Source: Acidobacteriota bacterium (GTDB lineage Bacteria > Acidobacteriota > Holophagae > Holophagales > Holophagaceae). From it: a DNA stretch of 64,000 nt. Below are positions 5,481 to 64,000 of this stretch, piece by piece. The position numbers and the translations under genes are program-made. The notes under the pieces are model-generated. The model did not search any database, was not told the origin of the DNA, and worked only from the letters and a program-made list of their open reading frames with translations. The DNA is taken from contig JACQZU010000014.1 of NCBI GenBank assembly GCA_016213735.1, positions 372,001-436,000 on the forward strand. Reading direction: 5' to 3'. Positions within the stretch are counted from its first letter, which is position 1. The number at the start of each line of letters is the position of its first letter.

Positions 5481-8400
5481 GCCTCTCCGCCCCCTTCATC
5501 CGGCGGCCGGTGGCCACGACGCTGTTGACGGTGGCCCTGGCCATGCTGGGGGCCCTTTCCTACCGCTTCCTGCCCGTGGCACCCCTCCCCCAGGTGGAGT
5601 TCCCCACCATCCAGGTGCAGGCAGGGCTTCCCGGGGCGAGCCCGGAGACCATGGCCTCCGCGGTGGCCACCCCCCTGGAGAGGCAGTTCGGGCGGATCGC
5701 GGGCATCACGGAAATGACCTCGGCCAGCTCCCTTGGTAACACGAACATCACCCTCCAGTTCGACCTGGGCCGGAACATCGACGCCGCGGCCAGGGACGTC
5801 CAGGCGGCCATCAACGCCGCCCGGGGGGACCTGCCGGCCAGCCTTCCAAGCAACCCCTGGTACCGCAAAGTGAACCCGGCGGATTCGCCCATCCTCATGC
5901 TCTCCCTGACCTCCAGCCTGGTGCCCCGGGAGCGGATGTACGACATCGCCTCCACGATCCTCCAGCAGAAGCTCTCCCAGGTGAAGGGTGTGGGCCAGGT
6001 GTTCGTCTGGGGCGGGGCCCTGCCCGCGGTGCGGGTGGACGTGAATCCGGTGGCCCTCCACGCCCGGGGGGTCAGCATGGAGGACCTTCGCTCTGCCATT
6101 TCGGCCGCCAACGTGAACCGGCCCAAGGGGTCCATCTCGGGCCCCGAAAGCACCTGGTCCCTCCACACCAACGACCAGCTCTTCACCGCCGCGGACTACC
6201 GGGACCTCATCGTCACCTACAAGAGCGGGGCCGCCCTGCGCCTCCAGGACGTGGCCAAGGTTCGCGATTCGGTGGAGAACATCCGCAGCGCCGGGCTCAC
6301 CAACGGGGTCCCGGCCATCATGATGCCGATCTTCCGGCAACCCGACGCCAACATCATCGAGACCGTGGACGAGGTGAAGGCGATCCTGCCCTCCCTCCAG
6401 GCCTCCCTTCCTCCTTCGATGGAGCTGAAGGTGATGATCGACGCCACGCGGGTCATCCGGGCCTCCGTGCGGGACATCCAGCTGGCCATGGGCATCTCCA
6501 TCTGCCTGGTGGTGCTGGTGGTCTTCCTCTTCCTTCGCACCCTCCGGGCCACCCTCATCCCCGGCATCGCGGTCCCCATTTCGCTCATCGGCACCTTCGG
6601 GGCCATGTACCTCATGGGCTACACCGTCGACAACCTGAGTCTCATGGCCCTCACCGTCGCCACGGGCTTCGTTGTGGACGACGCCATCGTGGTGGTGGAG
6701 AACATCACCCGCCACCTGGAGGCGGGCATGCGGCCCATGGAGGCGGCCTTCCACGGCGCCCGGGAGATCGGCTCCACGGTGGTCTCCATCAGCATCTCCC
6801 TCGTGGCGGTATTCATCCCCATCCTGCTCATGGGAGGGATCGTCGGCCGGCTCTTCCGTGAATTCGCCGTGACCCTTTCGGTGTCCATCCTGATCTCCAT
6901 GGTGGTCTCCCTGACCACCACCCCGATGATGTGCTCCCGCATCCTACGCCCGGCCTCCGAGGAGCGGCACGGACGGCTGTTCAAGGCCAGCGAGGAAACC
7001 TTCCAGAGGATCCTCAGGGGGTATTCGGCCTCTCTGGACTGGGTCCTCCGTCACCCGCTGTTGACCGTGACGACCTGGCTCGCCACCCTCGCCACGACGG
7101 TGGCCCTCTACTGGTTCATCCCCAAGGGCTTCTTTCCCCAGCAGGACACGGGCCGCATCACCGGCACGATCCAGGCCAGCCAGGACGTGAGCTACCAGAC
7201 CATGGAGCGCCTCATGGGCCGCTTCATGGACATCGTTCTCAAGGACCCTGACCTGGAGAACGTGACGGCCTTCGTGGGAGGCGGGAACACGGGAAGAATG
7301 TTCGGATCCCTGAAACCCAGGCCCGGCCGGAAGGCCAGCGCGGACCAGGTCATCGCCCGCCTGAGGGCCAGGACCGCCCACATCCCCGGCGCCCAGCTCT
7401 TCATGCAGCCCGTCCAGGACCTCCGGATCGGGGGCAGACCCAGCAGCTCGCAGTACCAGTACACCCTCCAGGGAGACGATGCGAAGGAGCTCTTCGAGTG
7501 GGCACCCAGGGTGCTTCAAAAGCTCCGGACCCTGCCCCAGCTCACGGACCTCAACACCGACCTCCAGAACAAGGGCCTCGAGGCCACGCTCGAGATCGAC
7601 CGGGCCACGGCCGCCCGTCTGGGCGTCAGCACCCAGGCCATCACCAACACGCTCTACGACGCCTTCGGGCAGCGATTCGTCTCCACCCTCTACACGGCCC
7701 TCAACCAGTACCACGTGGTCCTGGGGGTGGATCCGGCCTTCGGGCAGACCCCGGAGGGACTCCGCCACATCTACGTTCGCTCCGACCGGGGAGGCCTGGT
7801 CCCCCTCAGCGCCTTCGCCTCCTTCAAACCCAGCAGCACCGCGCTCTCCGTCAGCCACCAGGGTCAGCTGCCGGCCGTGACCCTTTCCTTCAACCTGCCT
7901 CCCGGGGTGGCCCTGGGGCAGGCGGTGGAGGCCATCGACCGGGCCCAGGGGGAGATCCACCTGCCGGGCAGCATCCGTGGCACCTACATGGGCACGGCCC
8001 AGGCCTTCAAGGACAGCCTGGCCAACCAGCCCCTCCTGATCCTCGCCTCCCTCCTGGCGGTCTACATCGTGCTGGGAATGCTCTACGAAAGCCTCATCCA
8101 CCCCCTCACGATCCTCTCCACCCTCCCCTCCGCGGGGGTCGGAGCCCTCCTGGCCCTCCTGGCCTTCCGAATTGAACTAAACGTCATCGCCCTCATCGGG
8201 ATCATCCTGCTCATCGGGATCGTCAAGAAGAACGCCATCCTGATGATCGACTTCGCCCTGGAGGTGGCCCGGCGGGAGGGCAAGGGACCGCGGGAGGCCA
8301 TTTTTCAGGCGAGCCTTTTGCGCTTCCGGCCCATCACCATGACCACCCTGGCGGCCCTCCTGGGCGGCCTGCCCCTGGCCATCGGGCTGGGCACCGGCTC

Positions 8401-10312: not shown

Positions 10313-11677
10313 ATGGCTTCCGCACGATGGATCCTTCCCTTCACCGCCTCGCTTGGCCTGATGGCCGGAACCGACGGACCCAGCAAGTTCTGGCCGTGGG
10401 AAATCCAGGCGGGCATCGACCAGATGGGATACAAGAACCACGACGTCCAGGGGCCTGCGGGCAGCTTCAAGATGGGCGCCGACGCCGCCACTGCGCCCAG
10501 TGTGCGGGTGGCGCTCGAACCCTTCTGCTTCAAGTGGGGCGGCATCCAGTTCTCCCTCGGCTACCGGGCGGGCAACGACGTGACGCTCAAGTACGGGTCC
10601 AAGGCCCAGGCCGACATGAAGCACAAGGAGCAGCTCCAGGCCGGCGTCCTGGCGCGCTTCCAGCCCATGAAGAACTTCGAGTGGGGCCTCGGCCTCGATG
10701 AGCGCCGCGACTACATGCGCGCCACGGGCGCCACCGGCACCCCGACGGAAGAGACCCTCTGGCGACCCTGGTTCCGCGCCGTCGCGCGCTACGTCTGGGA
10801 CGACGGCCGCTCCTACACCACGCCTTTCGTCGGGGTGGAATTCGCCAAGGCTCTTTCGGATGTGAAGATCGATCCCCAGGTCTACTACCAGGACTACGTC
10901 GTCCTCACTTCTGATTTCGTGGCGGGCCGCCGGAGCCGCGACAAGGCCCCCGACAGCCTGACCCGGGGGCATTTCCCCGACTGGCAGTTTGCGCTTGTCG
11001 GCGGCATCCGCTTCGGCCGTCACGCTCCCGGATGCGGAAGCGTGGCCCCCACCCCCATGGCCGCCCCCGCTCCCGCCCCGGCCCCGGCCCCGGTCACCCC
11101 GCCGGCCCCGGCCCCGGCCCCCAAGCCCGAACCGGCTCCTGAGTCCGCCAAGCCCGTGCCCGCCGCCGCCCCAGCCCCCGCCCCCAAGGTGGAGGTCGAG
11201 GAACTGGTGGTCCGCTTCGGCTTCGACCAGTCCACCAAGACCAAGAAGGCCCTTCAGACCGTCAAGGACTGGGCCTCCAAGTACAAGGGCAGCGTGGACG
11301 CCGGGTCCGTGCAGGTGACGGGCCACACCGACAGCATCGGTTCCCACGGCTACAACCAGAAGCTCTCGGAACGCCGGGCCGCCGCCGTCGTGAAGGTCCT
11401 CAAGGAGCAGGGCATCACCATCCAGCCCAGCAACACCAGCGGCAAGAGCTTCGATCAGCCCACCGCGGACAACAAGACGGCCCTCGGGCGGGCCAAGAAT
11501 CGCCGCACGGAAGTTCAGGTCAAGGGCGACAAGTACAAGATCACCGGCAAGGTCGAGACCGAGCCCGTGCTGGCCGCCAAGAAGAAGGCCGCCAAGCCGG
11601 CGGAGCCCAAGGCGGAACCCGCCCCCGAGGCCAAGCCCAAGGCCGAAGCCAAGCCCAAGGCCGAAACCAAGAAGTAG
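10313..11677 (+). CDS. OmpA-family outer-membrane protein with extended basic tail
   Basis: 454 residues, with GAGGAG 7 nt before the ATG. A short hydrophobic N-terminus (~1-18) could be a signal peptide. Residues ~20-245 are rich in aromatic beta-strands and resemble a small OMP barrel. An Ala/Pro linker (~245-300) follows, then an OmpA_C peptidoglycan-binding domain (~300-405) with VTGHTDSIGSHGYNQKLSERRA and GRAKNRRTEVQV. The last ~45 residues are Lys/Ala/Pro-rich and extend past the usual end of the family. Likely role: anchoring the outer membrane to peptidoglycan. A strong terminator follows. Confidence 0.88.
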   Translation: MASARWILPFTASLGLMAGTDGPSKFWPWEIQAGIDQMGYKNHDVQGPAGSFKMGADAATAPSVRVALEPFCFKWGGIQFSLGYRAGNDVTLKYGSKAQADMKHKEQLQAGVLARFQPMKNFEWGLGLDERRDYMRATGATGTPTEETLWRPWFRAVARYVWDDGRSYTTPFVGVEFAKALSDVKIDPQVYYQDYVVLTSDFVAGRRSRDKAPDSLTRGHFPDWQFALVGGIRFGRHAPGCGSVAPTPMAAPAPAPAPAPVTPPAPAPAPKPEPAPESAKPVPAAAPAPAPKVEVEELVVRFGFDQSTKTKKALQTVKDWASKYKGSVDAGSVQVTGHTDSIGSHGYNQKLSERRAAAVVKVLKEQGITIQPSNTSGKSFDQPTADNKTALGRAKNRRTEVQVKGDKYKITGKVETEPVLAAKKKAAKPAEPKAEPAPEAKPKAEAKPKAETKK

Positions 11678-13490: not shown

Positions 13491-15014
13491 ATGAGCCACC
13501 CATCCTCCATCGGCCGATACGAAATCCAGCGCGTCCTGGGGTACGGAGCGATGGGCGTGGTCTACCTTGGGAACGACCCGCTGCTCCACCGGCCCGTGGC
13601 CATCAAGGCCATGAGGGACCTGGGATCGGCCCATGGCGAGGACCGCCAGAACACGCGGGAGCGCTTCCGCCGGGAGGCGGAGATCAGCGCCAAGCTCAAC
13701 CACCCGAACGTCATCACGATCTTCGACGTGGGGGAGGATCCCAAGGTGGGTCCCTACATGGCCATGGAATTCATCAACGGACGGAGCCTCGCCCAGCTCA
13801 TCCGGGACGGCCTTCCTCTTGAATCCGGGCTCTCCCTCCTCCTCCAGGGCATGGGCGCCCTGAAGGCTGCGGAGGACGCGGGGGTGGTCCACCGGGACAT
13901 CAAGCCCGAGAACGTCCTCGTGGGGGCCGACGGGCGCTTCAAGCTCATGGACTTCGGGATCGCCCGGCGCGGGGAGTCCAAGCTGACCCAGGCCGGGATG
14001 GTGTTCGGGACGCCCTCCTACACGGCTCCGGAGCTTCTGGTGGGGGCGGAAGCGAACCCCGGCACCGACCGCTACGCCTTCGCGGTCACGGCTTTCGAGG
14101 TGCTCACCCGGCAGGTTCCCTTCCACGGCACCAGCATCGGAACCACCCTCTACAAAATCGTCCACGATCCCCCCCAGCTTCCGGAGGACATGGACCCGCC
14201 GCTCAAGAAGGTGTTCGCCCGGGCATTCGCCAAGCGGGCGGAGGACCGGTACCCGGACCTCCAGTCCTTCATGGGGGACCTGGTCGCCGCCGCCCCCATT
14301 CCGGACGAGGTGAAACTCAGGTTCCTCCACCAGCTTCAGGAAGAACGGGGGCCCCTGGACACCAAGGTCTACCCGCCGACCTTCCTCGCGCAGCGGCACA
14401 GCCTCGCGATGGCCGCCGGGGGCCAGACGGATCCCGGCCTGGCCGGCCGGGCGGAGGACGCGGCGCCGGAGGCGCCCCCGGAGGTCCCCCGGGCTGCCGG
14501 AGCCACTGCATCCCGACTCAAGTGGGGACTTGCCGTGGCCGCGGTGGCCCTGGTCGGGGGGCTGAGCGCTCTCCTGGTCCTCCTGGCGAGACCGCGCACC
14601 CTGGACCTCTTCTCCGAACCCATGGGAGCCGAGGTGCTTGTGGACGGCGTCAGCCTCGGGGCCACCCCGATCGCCCGGGCCGCGATCCCCAAGGGGGCCC
14701 GTCTCCTGCGCTTCCAGAAGACCGGCTACCTGCCGATGGAAGTGCCCGTTCCCGCCAAGGGCAGCCAGGTCAGTCCGGTCTTGGAGCCCAATCCCTTCGA
14801 GGTGCGGGTGGTGACCGACCCCCCCGGCGCCGACGTGTACCTCAATGGGCAGTTCGTCGGGAAGAGCCCCATCCAGGCCCTTCGGGTGCCCTCCCGGGGC
14901 GCCCCCGAAATGCGGATCCACCTCGAGGGGCATGAGGAAAAACGCTTCAGCGTGGACAACCGGGAACTCTTCCCGGAGGTCATTCTCCTGCCGCCCCTCC
15001 GCCCCGGTCGGTAG
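13491..15014 (+). CDS. Ser/Thr protein kinase with PEGA repeats
   Basis: 507-residue Hanks-type kinase. Glycine loop at 17-22, ATP-binding K39, HRD at 134-136, DFG at 154-156, then GTPSYTAPE in the activation segment, so all catalytic residues are present. A linker leads to a transmembrane helix at ~345-366, followed by two PEGA domains (~371-420 and ~430-490), each with PxGAxVxxxGxxxGxxP, expected on the periplasmic side. The predicted topology is a cytoplasmic kinase with an extracytoplasmic sensor or envelope-binding tail. A GATAAT hexamer lies 17 nt before the ATG, and no good ribosome-binding site is visible. Its last 35 nt overlap the convergent glycerate kinase gene. Confidence 0.93.
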   Translation: MSHPSSIGRYEIQRVLGYGAMGVVYLGNDPLLHRPVAIKAMRDLGSAHGEDRQNTRERFRREAEISAKLNHPNVITIFDVGEDPKVGPYMAMEFINGRSLAQLIRDGLPLESGLSLLLQGMGALKAAEDAGVVHRDIKPENVLVGADGRFKLMDFGIARRGESKLTQAGMVFGTPSYTAPELLVGAEANPGTDRYAFAVTAFEVLTRQVPFHGTSIGTTLYKIVHDPPQLPEDMDPPLKKVFARAFAKRAEDRYPDLQSFMGDLVAAAPIPDEVKLRFLHQLQEERGPLDTKVYPPTFLAQRHSLAMAAGGQTDPGLAGRAEDAAPEAPPEVPRAAGATASRLKWGLAVAAVALVGGLSALLVLLARPRTLDLFSEPMGAEVLVDGVSLGATPIARAAIPKGARLLRFQKTGYLPMEVPVPAKGSQVSPVLEPNPFEVRVVTDPPGADVYLNGQFVGKSPIQALRVPSRGAPEMRIHLEGHEEKRFSVDNRELFPEVILLPPLRPGR

Positions 15015-38869: not shown

Positions 38870-39664
38870 ATGTCCGACCTCGAGCCCGCGCAGCCAGCCA
38901 CGGAAACGGCGCCGCCCCCCTCCGCCTTCGAACCCCCCCGGGGTTTCGAGACGAAATTCAAGGGGCTGCCCCTCCACCTGGGGGCCTTCGAGGGACCCCT
39001 GGACCTTTTGCTCCACCTCATCCGGGAGCAGAAGCTGGAACTCCTGGACCTCCCCATGGCGGAGGTGACGCGGCAGTACATGGATTACCTGCTGCTCATG
39101 GAGGAGCTGAACCTCGAAGTGGCCTCGGAATTCGTGGCCATGGCCGCCCAGCTCATCCAAATCAAGAGCCGCCTCCTCCTGCCCAGGCCCCCGGCCGGGG
39201 ACGGCGCCGAAGAGGACCCCCGGGCCGAGCTGGTCCAGAAGCTCCTGGACTACCAGCAGGTGAAGGAGGCCGCCCGGGAGCTCTCCCGCCGGGAATCCGC
39301 CTGGCAGGACACGGTGTACGTGAAGGGCCTCGACCTCGGCGAGCACGCCAAGGTGGAGGAAGAGCCCATCAAGGTCACGCTCTTTGACCTGCTCGCAGCC
39401 TACCGGGAGGCCCTGAAGCGCCTGCTGCCCCCCCCGCCGGTGGAGGTCCGCACCGCCCCCAAGAGCCTCGAGCAGCGGATCGAGGAAGTGCTGGCGGCCC
39501 TGGCGACCGGCCAGTGGACCCCCTTCAAAGGCCTGCTGGACTTGGCCCGCTCCCGGGAAGACCTCGTCCTGACCTTCCTGGCCCTGCTGGAGCTGGTCCG
39601 GACAGGCAAGGTCCACCTCGTGCAGGCAGAGGCCTTCGGGGAAATCCGGGTCCAGGCGGCCTGA
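38870..39664 (+). CDS. scpA: Segregation and condensation protein A
   Basis: 264-residue kleisin subunit of the SMC-ScpAB condensin complex. After a ~30-residue acidic/Pro-rich extension comes the family N-terminus FEGPLDLLLHLIREQKLELLDLPMAEVTRQY (in part FEGPLDLLLHLIREQKLELL), then ASEFVAMAAQLIQIKSRLLLP, and the C-terminal winged-helix region FLALLELVRTGKV that binds the SMC head. scpB does not follow, which is unusual: the next gene is an unknown membrane protein. No ribosome-binding site; see the -10 element at 38858. Confidence 0.95.
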   Translation: MSDLEPAQPATETAPPPSAFEPPRGFETKFKGLPLHLGAFEGPLDLLLHLIREQKLELLDLPMAEVTRQYMDYLLLMEELNLEVASEFVAMAAQLIQIKSRLLLPRPPAGDGAEEDPRAELVQKLLDYQQVKEAARELSRRESAWQDTVYVKGLDLGEHAKVEEEPIKVTLFDLLAAYREALKRLLPPPPVEVRTAPKSLEQRIEEVLAALATGQWTPFKGLLDLARSREDLVLTFLALLELVRTGKVHLVQAEAFGEIRVQAA

Positions 39665-39680: not shown

Positions 39681-40118
39681 TTGGCTGACGCGCCCGTCCA
39701 GCCCTCCCGCCATCTCCCCTGGCAGCCCTACCTCGCCGGGGCGCTGATGGCGGTGTTCATGCCTCTGTTGGCCCAGGGAGCGCTGGGGCCAGTCGTGCCA
39801 GGGGGGCAGGCCCCGCTGGAAGGGCTGGTGCAGGAGCTTGGCTACACCTTCACCGCCCTCAGCGTCCTCGCGGTCCTGAGGGCTGGATTGCGATTCCGGA
39901 ATTGGGGCCGGCCGCACCGTCGCCCGGGCCCCTGGGGCCTGGCCGTGGGACATGCGGCACTTCTGCAGGTCTGCACCGCCTGCGGCCTTCTCTACTGGTC
40001 CCTTGCGGGACCGGCGGTGGAGCGCCACGCCAGGACCTTCCTGGCCCTCAGTCCGCTGACCTTCCTCCTGTTCTGCCCGCGTCCCTCCCCCCCCGGGATC
40101 CGGCAGGGAGCTCCCTGA
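39681..40118 (+). CDS. Small membrane protein of unknown function
   Basis: 145 residues from a TTG at 39681 that has GGAGG 7 nt upstream. Three to four hydrophobic segments: ~17-38, ~55-72, ~85-108 and ~120-132. No motif recognised. It starts 16 nt after scpA, in the position where scpB is often found, but has no similarity to ScpB. A continuous high-GC3 reading frame supports it as a real gene. Confidence 0.6.
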   Translation: MADAPVQPSRHLPWQPYLAGALMAVFMPLLAQGALGPVVPGGQAPLEGLVQELGYTFTALSVLAVLRAGLRFRNWGRPHRRPGPWGLAVGHAALLQVCTACGLLYWSLAGPAVERHARTFLALSPLTFLLFCPRPSPPGIRQGAP

Positions 40119-40162: not shown

Positions 40163-42694
40163 ATGTGCATGCACCCCGCCCGGAAGACCAAGGCCGCTCC
40201 GCCGGATCCCCCCGCTTCCGGCAAAACCCTGCCGGTGACGCCCTCCAGCGAGCCCACCCAGGCCCTGGACCCCCGGGCCACCCACATCGCCCAGGGGGAG
40301 GATCTGGAACGGATCCGGGAAGCCACCCAGTCGATGCCCCAGGGCGCGCCTTCCCGGATCGATTCCGCCCAGCCGGGGGACACCCAGGCTCCGGGAACGG
40401 GCGCGACCATGCCTGTCGAGGATGTGGATCCCTCCAAACGGGTCCAGGTATCCCTCAAGGAGCTGCGGCGCATCGTGGCGGAGAAAACCAAGGAGCGGGA
40501 AGAATCGGGCGCCACCCCGCCCCTCGTGCCAGGGGAGCAGACCCAGGTTCTTCCGGTTTCCGCGGAGACCACGCTCAGGATTCCGCCCGGGGAGGACAGT
40601 CCCACCTCCCTCATGTCCGTGGACTCCATGGTGCCGGAGGCCACCCTCATTCTCCGGCCCGGGGAAAGCACCCAGGCCCCCGGGCTCCCGGTTGAGGAGG
40701 GGGCCACCACCCTCATGGCGGTGGATTCCGCCGTGCCCGAACGAACCCTGATCCTCCGGGCGGAGGACTTCCCCTCCCAGGACCCGAGCACGGGAAAGGT
40801 CTCCGTGGAGCTTGCGGCGGCCCCGGAAGATTCCAAGCCCAGGGATCCCGCCGAGGACACCGAAGGGACGGCCAAACGTCCCCCGGAACGGGTCCAGGAA
40901 GCCCTTGAGCGGATGGAGCTCGGAACGGCTCTGCTACCCCAAGTGGCGCCGGCCTCGGGGTCCGGGGAGGGTGAGGAGACCACCACCCCGATCCAGAAGC
41001 CCCTGCAGGGAATGGGCTCCACGCATCCCGACGCCACGCTGATCGTCCGGAGGGAAGAGCTGGAACAGGGCGGGACGGTCGAGCCCGAGCCCGCGACCAC
41101 GCTGATGCCTCTTGCCCACCCCGACGCCACGCTGATCGTCCGGAGGGAAGAGCTGGAGCAGGGCCCGAAGATCGAGCCTGCGGCCGTGCCTGAGGCCGCA
41201 GCCGATCCTGCGCCCTCCACCCTGCTGATGCCGCTGGCGCATCCCGATGCCACGCTGATCGTCCGGAGGGAAGAACTGGATACGGTCGCAAAGACCGAGC
41301 CCACGGCCGTGCCTGAGGCCGCAGCCGATCCAGCGCCTGCCACCCTGCTGCTGCCTCTCGCCCATCCCGACGCCACGCTGATCGTTCGAAGGGAAGAACT
41401 GGAGACGGCCGCGAAGACCGAGCCCCTTCCCGAACCCGAGTCCGTGGCGGAGCCCGCGACCACGCTGATGCCTCTTGCCCACCCCGACGCCACGATGATC
41501 GTCCCGAGGGAAGAGTTGGAGCAGGGCGCGAAGACCGAGCCCCTTCCCGAACCCGAGGCCGTGGCGGAGCCCGCGACCACGCTGATGGCTCTTGCCCACC
41601 CCGACGCCACGCTGATCGTCCGGAGGGAAGAGCTGGAGAAGGGCGCGAGGATCGAGCCTGCGGCCGTGCCTGAGGCCGCAGCCGATCCTGCGCCTGCCAC
41701 CCTGCTGATGCCGCTGGCGCACCCCGATGCCACGCTGATCGTCCGGAGGGAAGAACTGGATGCGGTCGCAAAGACCGAGCCCGTTCCCGATCCCGTACCC
41801 GAAGCCGTGGCGGAACCCGCGACCACGCTGTTGCCCCTCTCCCACCCTGACGCCACGGTCATCGTTCGGAGAGAGGAACTGGATGAGGGCGGGACGGCCA
41901 AGCCCCTGGCGGAACCCGAGCCTGGGGCCGTGCCCGAGCCGCCCCCTTCGCCTTCGACGGGTTTCCTCCTCGTCCCCGGACCTGTCTCCCCAGGCGAGTC
42001 CCCAGCCGTTCCACCTCCGCCCCAAGAGCCGGAAACCCAGCTCCTACCCAAGCCCCAACCTGCCCAGCCTACGCTGGCCATGCCCCGGCAGGAGCCGGCG
42101 CCGGCCACCCTGTTGATGCCCCGGGTGGGTCCGGGAGTCCCCGCGTCCACCATGATGCTTCCGGTGGAGGAACTCTCCGCACTCTCCGAAATCCCATCCC
42201 CGCCGGTGGAAGGGCAGCCCGAGGCCGTCTCGCCCTACGAGACCCAGGTGATGCGGACCGCCCCCCGCCCCCAGCCCCCGCCCGCCCCTGCGGCACAGGC
42301 CCCGCCCTTCGTCGCTCCCGAAGCGCAACCCACCTCCGCCCGGGGTCGGCCCCTGTTCTGGGTTGCGGGGGGGGTGCTGGTCCTCCTCGGCGTGGTGGGC
42401 GCGGTGTGGGCCTTCCGGCCGGGTCCCCTGGGCGGAAGCGCCTCAGGCCCTGCTCTCCCCAGCCTGGGAGAATCCAGGGCACGGAGGGAGATCCCTCCCG
42501 CCTTGAAGCGCTACGAGGAGCAGGCCCGGAAGGGCGATGCCGGGGCGATGCGCTACCTGGGAACCTGCTTCGCCAACGGCCTCATGGTCCCCCAGGATCT
42601 TGCCGAGGCACGGTACTGGTACCGCCGCGCCGCCGAGGCTGGGAGCATGAAGGCCCGGGAGGAACTCGCCCAGCTGGAACAGTCCGGGAAATAG
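40163..42694 (+). CDS. Large repeat membrane protein with Sel1 C-terminus
   Basis: 843 residues, ATG at 40163 (a second ATG at 40169 is possible). Residues 1-~285 are acidic, Pro/Thr-rich and hold degenerate units (VPEATLILRPGE, VPERTLILRAEDF). Residues 288-~586 carry eight tandem repeats with core HPDATLIVRREELE, spaced 31-41 residues and separated by Glu/Pro/Ala-rich linkers ending in TTLMPLA. A Pro-rich region, one TM helix (~730-751) and a short Sel1-like repeat domain (~775-835, AMRYLGTCFANG and AEARYWYRRAAEAG) follow. The order predicts a single-pass protein with a long disordered repeat region on one side and the Sel1 domain on the other. I do not recognise the repeat. Ends directly against uvrC. 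Confidence 0.8.
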   Translation: MCMHPARKTKAAPPDPPASGKTLPVTPSSEPTQALDPRATHIAQGEDLERIREATQSMPQGAPSRIDSAQPGDTQAPGTGATMPVEDVDPSKRVQVSLKELRRIVAEKTKEREESGATPPLVPGEQTQVLPVSAETTLRIPPGEDSPTSLMSVDSMVPEATLILRPGESTQAPGLPVEEGATTLMAVDSAVPERTLILRAEDFPSQDPSTGKVSVELAAAPEDSKPRDPAEDTEGTAKRPPERVQEALERMELGTALLPQVAPASGSGEGEETTTPIQKPLQGMGSTHPDATLIVRREELEQGGTVEPEPATTLMPLAHPDATLIVRREELEQGPKIEPAAVPEAAADPAPSTLLMPLAHPDATLIVRREELDTVAKTEPTAVPEAAADPAPATLLLPLAHPDATLIVRREELETAAKTEPLPEPESVAEPATTLMPLAHPDATMIVPREELEQGAKTEPLPEPEAVAEPATTLMALAHPDATLIVRREELEKGARIEPAAVPEAAADPAPATLLMPLAHPDATLIVRREELDAVAKTEPVPDPVPEAVAEPATTLLPLSHPDATVIVRREELDEGGTAKPLAEPEPGAVPEPPPSPSTGFLLVPGPVSPGESPAVPPPPQEPETQLLPKPQPAQPTLAMPRQEPAPATLLMPRVGPGVPASTMMLPVEELSALSEIPSPPVEGQPEAVSPYETQVMRTAPRPQPPPAPAAQAPPFVAPEAQPTSARGRPLFWVAGGVLVLLGVVGAVWAFRPGPLGGSASGPALPSLGESRARREIPPALKRYEEQARKGDAGAMRYLGTCFANGLMVPQDLAEARYWYRRAAEAGSMKAREELAQLEQSGK
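41024..41920 (+). repeat. Eight in-frame coding repeats (HPDATLIVRREEL units)
   Basis: Units start at 41024, 41117, 41240, 41363, 41480, 41597, 41720 and 41843. Spacings are 93, 123, 123, 117, 117, 123 and 123 nt, all multiples of three. DNA identity is very high in the core, with some units near-identical over more than 100 nt (for example units 2 and 6, 4 and 5), suggesting recent amplification or gene conversion. Confidence 0.92.
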
Positions 42695-44500
42695 TCAGCC
42701 TCCCGCCTTCCAGGCCGCGACCTGGCGGGCCGCCGCGGGCCCAGCGGCTCCAGCCACCGCGGCCTCGTCGGCCTCCCGGAGCTTGGCCACGCTTCCGAAG
42801 CTCTGCAGGAGCTTCCGGGCGGTGGCGGGACCGATGCCCGGGATCTTCGTGAGCTCGGTCTGGACGGTGCGCTTGGCCCGCAGCCCCCGGTGGTAGGTGA
42901 TCGCGAAACGGTGCGCCTCGTCCCGGATGCGCTGCAGCAGCTGGAGCACGGGCGAGGACTTGGGGATCCGGATGGGTTCGGAGGCCTCCGGGCGGAAGAC
43001 CAGCTCCTCCTTCTTGGCCAGGCTGGCGAGCTGGAGCTGGTCCAGGCCCAGCTCCGCCAGGGCCTCCTGGGCCGCGTGGAGCTGTCCGAGGCCGCCGTCG
43101 ATGAGCACCAGGTTGGGGAACTCCTTGCCTTCGTCCCGCAGGCGCCGGTAGCGCCGGCCCACGGCCTCCTTCATGTTGGCGAAGTCGTCGTTCTGCTCGT
43201 GGGTCATCTTGAAGCGCCGGTAACCCGCCTTGTCCGGCAACCCGTCCCGGAAGACGACGCAGCTGGCCACCACCTCCCGGCCCTGGCCGTGGCTGATGTC
43301 GAAGCATTCCATCCGCACCGGCACATGGCTCAGGCCCAGGAAGGCCTGGAGGCCCTCCAGCACCGCCTGGTTCAGGCGGGCGGGCTCGAACTTCCGCTCC
43401 AGGGCCAGGGTGGCGTTCTCCTGGGCCATGGCCAGCAGTTCCACCTTCTCGCCGCGCTGCGGGACATGGATGGCGGGCTTGGTTCCCCGCATGCCCCCGA
43501 GCCAGTCCCGGAGCAGCTCGGGGTCCTCCGGGGGCACCTCCACCAGGATCCGGGCGGGTACGGCCTCGGCGGCGTACACGCGCTGGAGCACCTGGGCGGT
43601 GAAGGCGCCGTCCAGGCGCTCCACGTCGTCCACCAGGTATTTGTTCCGGGCGATGATCCGGCCCTCCCGCAGCACCAGTCGGTGGACGCAGGCCCGGCCG
43701 TCGAGCAGCGCCGAACCGAAGATGTCCGTGTCCTCCTGGTCCACCACCGCGGCCTTCTGGCGGGAGAACCAGGCGTCCAGCTGGGCCAGCTCGTCCCGGT
43801 AGGCCGCCGCCTGCTCGAAGGCATGCTTCTCCGCCGCGAGCCACATGGCGGTCTCCAGGCGGCTCTTCAGTTCCTCGCGCTTCCCCTCCAGGAAGAGCCG
43901 CGCCTCCTTCGCCTGCTCCCGGTAGGCTTCCTCGGTGACGGCTGCGATGCAGGGAGCCGTGCAGCGGTGCAGCTGGTACTTCATGCAGGCCCGCCCGCGC
44001 TTGCCGTCGATGGGAATGTCGCAGTCCCGGATCTGGAAGAACCGGTACACCAGCTCGGCGGTGCGGTAGGCCGTGGAGGCGGGGAAGAAGGGCCCGAAGT
44101 AGAGCGAGCCGTCCTTGGTCACCTTCCGGGTGACGAAGACCTTGGGGAAGGCCTCCTTCCAGGTGAGCTTCACGTAGGGGTAGCTCTTGTCGTCCCGCAG
44201 CATGATGTTGAACGGCGGGTCGTGCTCCTTGATGAGGTTGTTCTCCAGCACCAGGGCTTCCAGCTCCGTCTGGCAGACGATGAGCTCCAGGTCCCAGATG
44301 CGGCCCACCAGCCGGCGAGTCTTGGCGTCCAGGTGCCGGGACTGGAAGTAGGACTTCACCCGGTTTCGCAGCACCTTGGCCTTGCCCACGTAGAGCAGGT
44401 TCCCCTCCCGGTCGCGGTAGAGGTACACGCCGGGGCGGGCAGGGAGGTCCCCCAACTTTCTGCGGAGGGCGGGGGATTTTTCGACGTTGCTGCGCGCCAC
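42695..44500 (-). CDS. uvrC: UvrABC excinuclease subunit C
   Basis: 601 residues. Makes both incisions in nucleotide excision repair. N-terminal GIY-YIG nuclease (~14-95: GVYLYRDREGNLLYVGKAK, with R and E in later positions), a Cys-rich segment (C163, C177, C182 region), a UVR motif (~200-240), the RNase-H-like endonuclease domain (~380-540; ECFDISHGQG, LIDGGLGQL), and tandem helix-hairpin-helix (~550-600; IPGIGPATARKLL). GTG start at 44500, one base after the stop of the small upstream gene. The 3' end touches the convergent repeat-protein stop with no gap. Confidence 0.96.
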   Translation of the reverse strand: MARSNVEKSPALRRKLGDLPARPGVYLYRDREGNLLYVGKAKVLRNRVKSYFQSRHLDAKTRRLVGRIWDLELIVCQTELEALVLENNLIKEHDPPFNIMLRDDKSYPYVKLTWKEAFPKVFVTRKVTKDGSLYFGPFFPASTAYRTAELVYRFFQIRDCDIPIDGKRGRACMKYQLHRCTAPCIAAVTEEAYREQAKEARLFLEGKREELKSRLETAMWLAAEKHAFEQAAAYRDELAQLDAWFSRQKAAVVDQEDTDIFGSALLDGRACVHRLVLREGRIIARNKYLVDDVERLDGAFTAQVLQRVYAAEAVPARILVEVPPEDPELLRDWLGGMRGTKPAIHVPQRGEKVELLAMAQENATLALERKFEPARLNQAVLEGLQAFLGLSHVPVRMECFDISHGQGREVVASCVVFRDGLPDKAGYRRFKMTHEQNDDFANMKEAVGRRYRRLRDEGKEFPNLVLIDGGLGQLHAAQEALAELGLDQLQLASLAKKEELVFRPEASEPIRIPKSSPVLQLLQRIRDEAHRFAITYHRGLRAKRTVQTELTKIPGIGPATARKLLQSFGSVAKLREADEAAVAGAAGPAAARQVAAWKAGG

Positions 44501-53583: not shown

Positions 53584-53677
53584 GGAGGCGAATACAGGGC
53601 TACGGCGAGGGGAGACGGGCGCGGCCCGCGGTGACGGCCGCCGCCACGGCCACGGCCCTCGGTCTCGGCATGGGTCC

Positions 53678-53800
53678 TCGGTCTCGGTGTCGGCATCGGC
53701 ATCGGTGTCGGTGTCGGTGTCGGCATCGGCATCGGGTGCCGAAACCGGAACTGACTCTGTTTCCGACTCCGAACCCGACTCCGAATCCGAGTCCGGGCCC
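53678..53800. repeat. Short-period direct repeats (six-base TCGGTG/TCGGCA units)
   Basis: About ten near-perfect hexamers (TCGGTG, TCGGCA) run from 53678 to ~53737, followed by a 12-base-period stretch (CCGACTCCGAAC variants) from 53764 to ~53800. Both strands remain open, but the encoded peptides (Ser-Val/Ser-Ala or Pro-Met) are simple low-complexity runs. I do not assign a gene here. It lies between the 53.0-53.6 kb gene and the RsbW-like gene. Confidence 0.8.
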
Positions 53801-61922: not shown

Positions 61923-64000
61923 TCAGTGGGAGACCACCGCGAGGAAGCGAGGATTCTGGGCCAGGCCCTTCCATTCGGGTTTCCCGGGGATCTCCCGCAG
62001 AGCCTGGCGGCCGTTCGGGGTGCGGGGCACTTGCTCCAGGCGGGCCAGGGCCTCCGCATCCCGCCCGAGCAGGTGCTCCACCTCCGCCAGTTCGACGAGG
62101 GTGGCGATGGTCCCGGGATGATCCTCCCCCACCACCCGGCATTTGGCCTCCCAGGCCTCCAGGTACAGCGCGCGGGCCTCCCCCAGGCGACGAAGGCCCC
62201 GGAGGGTGTAGGCCAGGTTGAACTTCCCCGAGAGGGTCAGGGGGTGTTCCGGACCCAGCACGCGGTTGAGCTTCTCCAGGGTCGCCCGCAGCAGCTCGGC
62301 GGCGGCCTCCGGCCGGCCCCCGTCGTCCATGGCCCCCGCCAGGTTCATCATGGCCCTCAGGGTGTTGGGATGCTCCTCCCCCAGCACCCGCCGCTTCGCT
62401 TCCAGCACCTCTTCGTAGAGACGTTCCGCTTCCTGGAAACGCCCCTGTTTGTAGCGGAGGTTTCCGAGCTGGTTCCTGGAGGACAGCGTGTCGGGATGAT
62501 CGGGCCCGAGGATCCGGAGGCGGGATTCCAGGGTCCTGGTGCACAGGGGCTCCGCCTCCTCCAGGCGACCCTGGGCGAAACACACCCCCGCCAGGTTGTA
62601 TCGGGAAGAGAGGGTGTCCGGATGGGCGGGGCCCAGGGTGCCTTCCCGGGCTTTCAGCACCCGGGCGTGGAGGGTTGCGGCCTCCTCGAGGCGGCCGAGG
62701 GCGAAGAGCGCGTTGGCCAGGTCGTTCTCCGAACTCAGGGTGGCTTCGTGGTCCGTTCCCAGGCGGCGGGCCCGGGCCTGGCTCGTCTGGCGGTAGATCT
62801 TCTCGGCCTCCGCATGTTGGCCCTGGTCGTCCAGGGCGTTTCCGAGATTGTTGAGCGCCACGAGGGTGTCCGGATGGTCCGGCCCCCGGTCCCTCCTCCG
62901 ATGCTCCAGGGCCTCGGCGAACAGACCCTGCGCCTCCTTGGGCATGCCGAGGCGGAGGTAGAGGGCCCCGAGGGTGGCCATGAGCCTGCTCCGGACTTCC
63001 GGATCCCTCACGGCCCCGAGGCGTCCCTGGGCCCGGAGGAGCACCTCCTTGGCGGAGAAGGTCTTCCCCTGTGCATTCTCCGGATTCCAGACGTCGAACA
63101 TGCCCTCCAGGAAGCCCCGGATGTCCTGGTTGATGGAGGCCTCCCTGCGGATCCTCCGGGCCTGGAGGCCCATGACCACGCCGAAGGCCGCGACCATGAG
63201 GAAAAGGAGGGAGGCCACCGCCACGCCCGTGCGGTAGCGCCGGAGGAAGAGCCTGGCTTTGCGGGTTCGGCTGGAGGGGCGGGCCAGGAGCGGCTGGGCC
63301 CCGAGGAAGCGCCCCACCTCTTCCCCCAGCATGCCCACGCTCGGGTAGCGGAGGTCGGGCTCCTTGGCCAGGCCGGTCTCGAGGATGGTCCACAGATCGG
63401 GATCGGGCCGGGGGACTCCATTCCAGGATTCGGACCACGGCGCGGGAGGCTGTTCGCAGATGGTCCGGATGCAATCCAGGATGGGCAGACCCTCCAGGTC
63501 GTAGGGGCGCCGCTGGAACAGCAGCTCGTAGAGGATCACTCCCAGGGAATAGACGTCGGTGCGGACATCCAGGGCGCCCCGTTCGCCCCGGGCCTGTTCG
63601 GGACTCATGTAGGCCAGGGTGCCCACGAGCATCCCGGGCTCTGTGGCGCCCGCGGGGTCCAGGGAGCCGTCCTCCAGGAGCCTCGCCAGTCCGAAGTCCA
63701 GGATCTTCACCGCGGGAAGGTCTCCTGGCCGATCCGGGTCGAGGACCATGATGTTGGCCGGCTTCAGGTCCCGGTGGACGATGCCCCGGAGGTGGGCGTA
63801 GTTCACGCCTTCGCAGACCGCCTGGAACAGCCGGAGCCGGAGGCGCAGCTCCGCCTCTCCGCCCAGGGCCGGCCGAGACGAGATCCATTCCAGGAGGGAG
63901 GCGCCCTGGACCCGTTCCATGGCCAGGTAGTCCTGCCCTTCGGGGGTGCGGCCGGCTTCGTAGATGGTGGCGATGGCCGGGTGCTTGAGGCGGCCCAGGG
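61923..64000 (-). CDS. Ser/Thr protein kinase with C-terminal TPR array, 5' end beyond window
   Basis: Open to the right edge, so the start and the N-terminal kinase lobe (glycine loop, ATP lysine) are not seen. 691 codons of the frame lie in the window. Visible: the strand before ERVQGASLLEWI, catalytic HRDLKPANIMV, DFGLARLL, a YMSPEQARGE activation end; a TM helix (VASLLFLMVAAFGVVMGLQA); then about 10 TPR units of kinesin-light-chain style (HPDTLSSRNQLGNLRYKQGR and variants). Hanks-type kinase with an extracytoplasmic TPR domain is expected. Ends with a stop at 61923. Confidence 0.93.
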   Translation of the reverse strand, partial: LGRLKHPAIATIYEAGRTPEGQDYLAMERVQGASLLEWISSRPALGGEAELRLRLRLFQAVCEGVNYAHLRGIVHRDLKPANIMVLDPDRPGDLPAVKILDFGLARLLEDGSLDPAGATEPGMLVGTLAYMSPEQARGERGALDVRTDVYSLGVILYELLFQRRPYDLEGLPILDCIRTICEQPPAPWSESWNGVPRPDPDLWTILETGLAKEPDLRYPSVGMLGEEVGRFLGAQPLLARPSSRTRKARLFLRRYRTGVAVASLLFLMVAAFGVVMGLQARRIRREASINQDIRGFLEGMFDVWNPENAQGKTFSAKEVLLRAQGRLGAVRDPEVRSRLMATLGALYLRLGMPKEAQGLFAEALEHRRRDRGPDHPDTLVALNNLGNALDDQGQHAEAEKIYRQTSQARARRLGTDHEATLSSENDLANALFALGRLEEAATLHARVLKAREGTLGPAHPDTLSSRYNLAGVCFAQGRLEEAEPLCTRTLESRLRILGPDHPDTLSSRNQLGNLRYKQGRFQEAERLYEEVLEAKRRVLGEEHPNTLRAMMNLAGAMDDGGRPEAAAELLRATLEKLNRVLGPEHPLTLSGKFNLAYTLRGLRRLGEARALYLEAWEAKCRVVGEDHPGTIATLVELAEVEHLLGRDAEALARLEQVPRTPNGRQALREIPGKPEWKGLAQNPRFLAVVSH

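Follow-up and report, generated by a model that had tools for sequence, protein, structure and literature searches.

Locus and protein architecture

The window (the whole 64,000-nucleotide stretch of DNA analysed here) carries on its forward strand, at 40163-42694, a gene for an 843-aa membrane protein, whose open reading frame (ORF) contains no internal stop and is also picked by a codon-usage gene finder; a second in-frame ATG is found at 40169. A long N-terminal tail rich in Thr, Pro, Ala and Glu (aa 1-730; 40163-42352, +), predicted to be cytoplasmic, is followed by a single predicted transmembrane (TM) helix (aa 731-749; 42353-42409, +) and a Sel1 repeat (aa 795-828; 42545-42646, +) matching Pfam PF08238 at 36.6 bits against a cut-off of 30.7. 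Both the helix and the Sel1 domain had been named in the initial annotation of this DNA. The predicted topology has as its pointers Lys and Arg residues located mainly on the N-terminal side of the helix and an N-terminus that lacks a hydrophobic stretch. Residues 769-843 were modeled as four helices (mean pLDDT 87.9), and the top Foldseek matches of this C-terminal model were Sel1-type, generic Sel1 proteins (best E 0.01). When the 843-aa protein was compared with Pfam and NCBIfam, only Sel1 passed its cut-off, with a TPR match below threshold; neither an FHA domain nor an ABC transporter domain was found in the Pfam scan.

Upstream of the gene lie ScpA (38870-39664, +), a conserved neighbor, and a 145-aa hydrophobic protein (39681-40118, +), which has no Pfam match and has a place between ScpA and the 843-aa protein gene that is conserved in many orthologous loci. 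The conserved convergent neighbor downstream (42695-44500, -) encodes a protein that we take, from its family, to be UvrC. No FHA or kinase gene adjoins the gene; the kinases of the window are found at 13491-15014 and 61923-63998. Other repeats are present in the window, with tandem repeats of periods 18 and 30 (AAGCCCAAGG-type) at 11604-11671, inside the ORF 10361-11677, and several overlapping short tandem repeats of TCGGCA type (periods 6-30) at 53658-53795.

Repeat units of the tail

Eight near-identical units and two degenerate ones upstream, as initially described, were located in the translated ORF. The degenerate units are VPEATLILRPGES (VPEATLILR, Thr161; 40631-40669, +) and VPERTLILRAEDF (VPERTLILR, Thr195; 40733-40771, +), and a distant unit-like motif, VPASTMMLPVEEL, is found around Thr663 (42137-42175, +). 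The eight 14-residue unit cores, all on the forward strand, occupy 41024-41065, 41117-41158, 41240-41281, 41363-41404, 41480-41521 (the DATMIVPREEL variant), 41597-41638, 41720-41761 and 41843-41884 (the DATVIV variant), with unit-to-unit spacings of 31, 41, 41, 39, 39, 41 and 41 aa and the consensus HPDAT[LMV]IV[RP]REEL (HPDATLIVRREEL). An invariant Thr before a hydrophobic pair and Arg had been proposed; the Thr is indeed present in 8/8 cores, as is Ile at +2, but position +1 varies among Leu, Met and Val, and the Arg is replaced by Pro in 1/8. Most linkers also contain a second Thr motif (TTLMPLA or TLLMPLA), absent from the first description.

At the DNA level, Tandem Repeats Finder reports an array of period 123 with 6.7 copies (score 790) at 41089-41905 (+). 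Shifted by 480 nt, the array is 78% identical to itself, which suggests that units 1-4 were duplicated as a block to give units 5-8 and bears out the recent expansion initially suspected. Cores 2 and 6 are identical in their DNA, as is no other pair; because the unit DNA differs between copies, a pure assembly artefact is less likely, although a miscount is still possible, with the unit number coming from one assembly. The unit, initially not recognized, matches no Pfam or NCBIfam model, and no convincing relative of it was found outside the gene in 61 family genomes (best E 0.09).

A family of orthologues in Holophagaceae

The source genome comprises 3.59 Mb in 28 contigs. A search of 60 relatives returned matches in 32, mostly to the TM and Sel1 end of the protein, and at least one of the window neighbors LipA, ScpA and UvrC was found beside the match in 24 of 25 loci. 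Where the contig permits, the locus order is LipA, ScpA, 145-aa protein, 843-aa protein gene, UvrC and GloB. Judged from these sequences, the tailed TM-Sel1 proteins are a true orthologue family of Holophagaceae and not an orphan; among its carriers with a species name are Geothrix oryzisoli, G. limicola, G. campi and G. fermentans, whose strain DSM 14018 has the orthologue at locus L160. Their C-terminal halves align, whereas the tails are barely or not alignable and are built of different repeats. Tail length ranges from 42 to 661 residues, with 1 to 29 T-x-x-hydrophobic sites, or from 42 to 730 residues and 1 to 38 sites when the window protein is included. Orthologues of genus g11, for instance, have their own array of other units (e.g. 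ADATLRLKREEMSLEEPTVALQAG) with the same Thr code. Four of these g11 orthologues (L081, L093, L094, L166) contain two separate Thr arrays per tail, unlike the window units in sequence.

A common Thr code

Despite their unlike repeats, all orthologue tails reuse one code, [D/E]-x-Thr-x-x-[I/L/V/M]. Near-duplicate orthologues were removed before counting (18 and 15 kept of 24), and two orthologues cut by contig ends (L099, L100) were left out of all counts. Among 18 thinned sequences, Thr is followed by [ILVM] at +3 in 54% of cases (z +14.4) and preceded by [DE] at -2 in 37% (z +11.7), and Ser shows neither preference. The same bias is seen after removal of the window and long g11 tails (67/117 at +3, 36/117 at -2). 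In the window tail alone, 38 of the 64 Thr residues have [ILVM] at +3, acid at -2 is enriched (z +4.3), and the full motif, [DE]-x-T-x-x-[ILVM], is formed around 15/64.

The code was also fixed first and then tried on 18 unused orthologues, leaving out a non-orthologue (L170) and loci that repeat already used genomes. In this hold-out, position +3 of Thr was hydrophobic in 88/180 cases (z +9.4) and position -2 was acidic in 71/181 (z +11.1), values reached in 0/500 shuffles for either position; Ser showed no excess (23/127 at +3, 13/130 at -2). Across 41 orthologue tails, 138 of 496 Thr residues lie in the full motif, compared with 206/8267 in 563 other proteins predicted in 40 stretches and the window. 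Disordered-like segments of similar composition in other proteins of the genome lack the +3 bias (152/941, z +0.5). A hydrophobic residue at +2, present in the window units, is not enriched in the orthologues. One code shared by such unlike repeats is, in our view, the best indication that the tail functions through this code.

Conservation and selection

Conservation in the tail is highest at the motif Thr residues. At aligned sites of close orthologues, where rows inside one group are not independent, identity is 0.90 for motif Thr, compared with 0.54 for other Thr, 0.50 for Ser and 0.77 for Pro; it is 0.82 for acids at -2 versus 0.67 for other acids, and 0.69 for the +3 hydrophobic residue. 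Within the window protein, the eight unit cores differ at a pS of 0.336 and a pN of 0.040 (pN/pS about 0.12). The two closest linker pairs give a pS of 0.00-0.04 and a pN of 0.07-0.09, with no purifying selection, and more distant linker pairs give a pN/pS of roughly 0.5 to 0.7. From these comparisons of copies, duplication seems to keep producing copies in which the 14-residue core is maintained by selection and the linkers are only loosely constrained.

Kinases, FHA proteins and published codes

Hanks-type kinases, initially said to be encoded in the genome, are abundant: the source genome has 35 Pkinase, 15 FHA and 2 PP2C matches, and its FHA count exceeds that of each of 36 other family genomes searched. 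The FHA self-ligands of DgcB, GarA and OdhI are described as having Glu at -2 and hydrophobic residues at +2 and +3 (PMC6733907), positions that HPDATLIV fits with its acid at -2 and its hydrophobic +2 and +3. The fit to the FHA code is only partial, as the units lack two further ligand features, Ser at +1 and a hydrophobic residue at -3, and have Leu, Met or Val at +1 and Pro at -3 instead. Thr sites lost upon depletion of PknA in Mycobacterium tuberculosis are described with Leu or Val at +3, Lys or Arg at +4 and an acid at +7 (PMC7164672), and DATLIVRREEL fits this motif as well, with Val, Arg and Glu at these positions.

Similar Thr motifs were sought in the kinases and FHA proteins themselves. 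Disordered-like segments of the kinases show a mild bias at +3 of Thr (37/162, z +2.4; 17/76, z +3.3 with a stricter cut) and no enrichment of acid at -2 (18/163, z -0.2); in those of the FHA proteins, Ser also shows a +3 excess, in small numbers (10/33, z +2.3). The full motif is not enriched in whole kinase (13/577) or FHA (8/233) proteins. When 8818 Thr sites were ranked with a profile of the orthologue motif, the top 200 included 10 sites in FHA proteins and 28 in kinases, against about 5 and 13 expected; the profile of the window unit gave no excess in its own top 200 of these sites (FHA 5, kinases 10). The best of five post hoc regular expressions for a longer form, T-phi-phi-phi-x-x-x-[DE]-L, matched 3/321 Thr of FHA proteins and 3/8267 of others (p 0.001), with 1/3 of the FHA-protein matches inside the FHA fold; two of the other four gave p 0.002 and 0.04, and two were not significant (0.26 and 0.12). 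This longer-form signal in FHA proteins is suggestive only.

Individual proteins provide further look-alikes. In some kinases T-V-x-L/V strings are found just ahead of the TM helix. One kinase (L135:5227-6999) has several of them (TVLLPSAGPTVTLPQAGATVVLPQAG) between its kinase domain and TM helix, forming a small ladder. On contig C20 of the source genome, two FHA-GGDEF proteins are encoded in tandem (L121:4884-5870 and 5953-6900), with a kinase gene directly after them. Both have a short acid-rich Thr motif ahead of the FHA domain, and similar Thr motifs precede the FHA domain in other Holophagaceae FHA-GGDEF proteins. The best PDB relative of the first (L121:4884-5870) is 6HBZ, an accession that belongs to DgcB (PMC6733907). 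In FHA-RDD membrane proteins, GTVRM is present just after the FHA domain in 7/7 cases (L125:4924-5988 in the source genome and L235-L240 in six Holophagaceae); it is kept within an otherwise variable linker and looks like a self-ligand. The Thr look-alikes in kinases and beside FHA domains suggest a parallel to the tail code, on which the profile and regular-expression tests are weak or mixed.

The number of sites per tail does not correlate with the number of kinases or FHA proteins across 24 genomes (Spearman 0.05 and 0.11). The 11 of 37 genomes in which no syntenic orthologue was seen have few kinases (p 0.0007) and include reduced and incomplete genomes, so that little weight is given to gene absence tracking low kinase number.

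Proposed function and alternatives

The anatomy of the protein, its orthology, the Thr code and its conservation, the selection on the cores and the fact that the genome encodes kinases and FHA proteins are established here. A multi-site phospho-Thr or peptide-docking array had been proposed in the initial annotation, and this idea gains support, at the level of sequence, from the shared Thr code, the conserved motif Thr, the unused Ser, the published codes and the many kinases and FHA proteins. The best reading, which we hold to be moderately probable, is a membrane-anchored phospho-Thr scaffold of variable valency, read by FHA proteins and with its Sel1 part in the periplasm; we infer the topology, the phosphorylation of the tail, its binding by FHA proteins, the clustering and the part played by Sel1.

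The 843-aa protein would be a type II membrane scaffold with its unstructured tail in the cytoplasm, and this tail would probably act as a docking ladder, tunable and switched on by kinase phosphorylation. The ladder would comprise about 38 T-x-x-hydrophobic sites, of which the HPDATLIVRREEL cores contribute eight. Hanks-type kinases would phosphorylate the tail Thr residues, FHA proteins of the same cell would bind phospho-Thr via the acid at -2 and the hydrophobic residue at +3, and the periplasmic Sel1 part would anchor or position the assembly. With many FHA-binding sites per molecule, one molecule could bring several FHA effectors together beneath the membrane, and many similar sites may provide avidity and possibly clustering, as in the phosphorylated FHA module of Rv1747. 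The evolving quantity would be the number of sites and not the exact repeat. As a bolder extension, which we consider doubtful, the protein could be a bacterial equivalent of the phospho-repeat hubs of eukaryotes, with about 30 kinases converging on one scaffold that gathers FHA effectors and a gain set by repeat number; the effectors gathered, as part of this same doubtful claim, would be two DgcB-like diguanylate cyclases, a GAF-SpoIIE protein, a nucleotide cyclase and an FHA-RDD membrane protein.

It is also conceivable, if unlikely, that the Thr residues are kinase sites with an output other than the recruitment of FHA proteins, and that the tail serves as a phosphate sink, a kinase docking platform or a charge switch that alters tail shape or the position of Sel1. 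No single FHA partner is linked to the gene, the +3 bias is also present in kinase linkers, and the code also fits the STPK substrate motif as described for M. tuberculosis, for which no reader is needed (PMC7164672). However, acidic residues are strongly favored at -2 in the tails, a preference that matches the FHA ligand code as reported (PMC6733907) and is absent both from kinase linkers and from the PknA logo positions described in PMC7164672.

Somewhat less plausible is a motif acting as a phosphorylation-independent docking peptide, for example by strand addition to some partner. T-L-I-V-R is strand-prone, and some FHA interactions are reportedly phospho-independent, to judge by the title of work by Nott in 2009. 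Nevertheless, the Thr is unreplaced in 8/8 cores, and it is odd for a strand-addition peptide that motif Thr should be more conserved than the hydrophobic residue at +3. A low-complexity spacer, grown by neutral repeat expansion and with the motif as a by-product of composition, would agree with the highly variable tail length and the unconstrained closest linker pairs, but is already disfavored and very improbable, given that the position bias persists through composition-preserving shuffles and the hold-out and is missing from other disordered-like segments, that the cores show a low pN/pS and that motif Thr is conserved. Secreted linkers often contain stretches rich in Thr and Pro, yet an O-glycosylated tail outside the cytoplasm is very improbable, given an N-terminus free of hydrophobic stretches, Lys and Arg mainly on the N-terminal side of the only TM helix, and a +3 hydrophobic requirement and exclusion of Ser that are not expected of glycosylation.

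If the FHA-read scaffold is correct, it would be a bacterial kinase-to-FHA scaffold whose valency evolves by DNA repeat duplication with a fixed phospho-code. The kinase networks of Holophagaceae, a family for which our literature search found no work on kinase substrates, would gain a predicted shared target and, in it, dozens of sites open to testing. The orthologues, with 1 to 38 sites, would form a natural series for the effects of valency. Neither the 843-aa protein nor a tandem array of phospho-Thr sites serving bacterial FHA domains was the subject of any paper returned by the same search.

Comparison with known systems

The N-terminal phospho-Thr tails of GarA/OdhI and DgcB resemble the window units as they are described, with Thr in a disordered tail, an acid at -2 and hydrophobic residues at +2/+3 (PMC6733907; PMC5448819). 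However, these proteins have one motif beside their own FHA domain, whereas the 843-aa protein has dozens of motifs, no FHA domain and a membrane anchor. In Rv1747, an ABC transporter of M. tuberculosis, phosphorylation of a cytoplasmic disordered region is reported to govern assembly with phospho-Thr-binding FHA domains, and condensates are described (PMC10906006). A membrane protein with a cytoplasmic disordered region is common to both, that of the 843-aa protein being predicted, but Rv1747 contains two FHA domains of its own and an ABC transporter, and the 843-aa protein contains neither.

MmpS3 is a small membrane protein, and to our knowledge neither it nor FhaA is a tandem array of one unit. 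FhaA and MmpS3 of M. tuberculosis are reported to be heavily multi-phosphorylated, at 23 and 16 sites, respectively (PMC7164672). In eukaryotes, the MELT array of the kinetochore scaffold KNL1 is described as a set of repeated phospho-Thr motifs that recruit the reader Bub3 (PMC3779320); the motif (MELT versus HPDAT[LMV]IV) and the reader differ, and the likeness is an analogy only. By Pfam and Foldseek, the C-terminal domain of the 843-aa protein belongs with Sel1-repeat proteins, but differs from them in being short (about four helices), attached to a TM helix and preceded by a long tail. Altogether, the proposed scaffold would join a known class, that of regions with multiple phospho-Thr sites recognized by FHA domains, here in an unusual layout and in an orthologue family with a measurable code.
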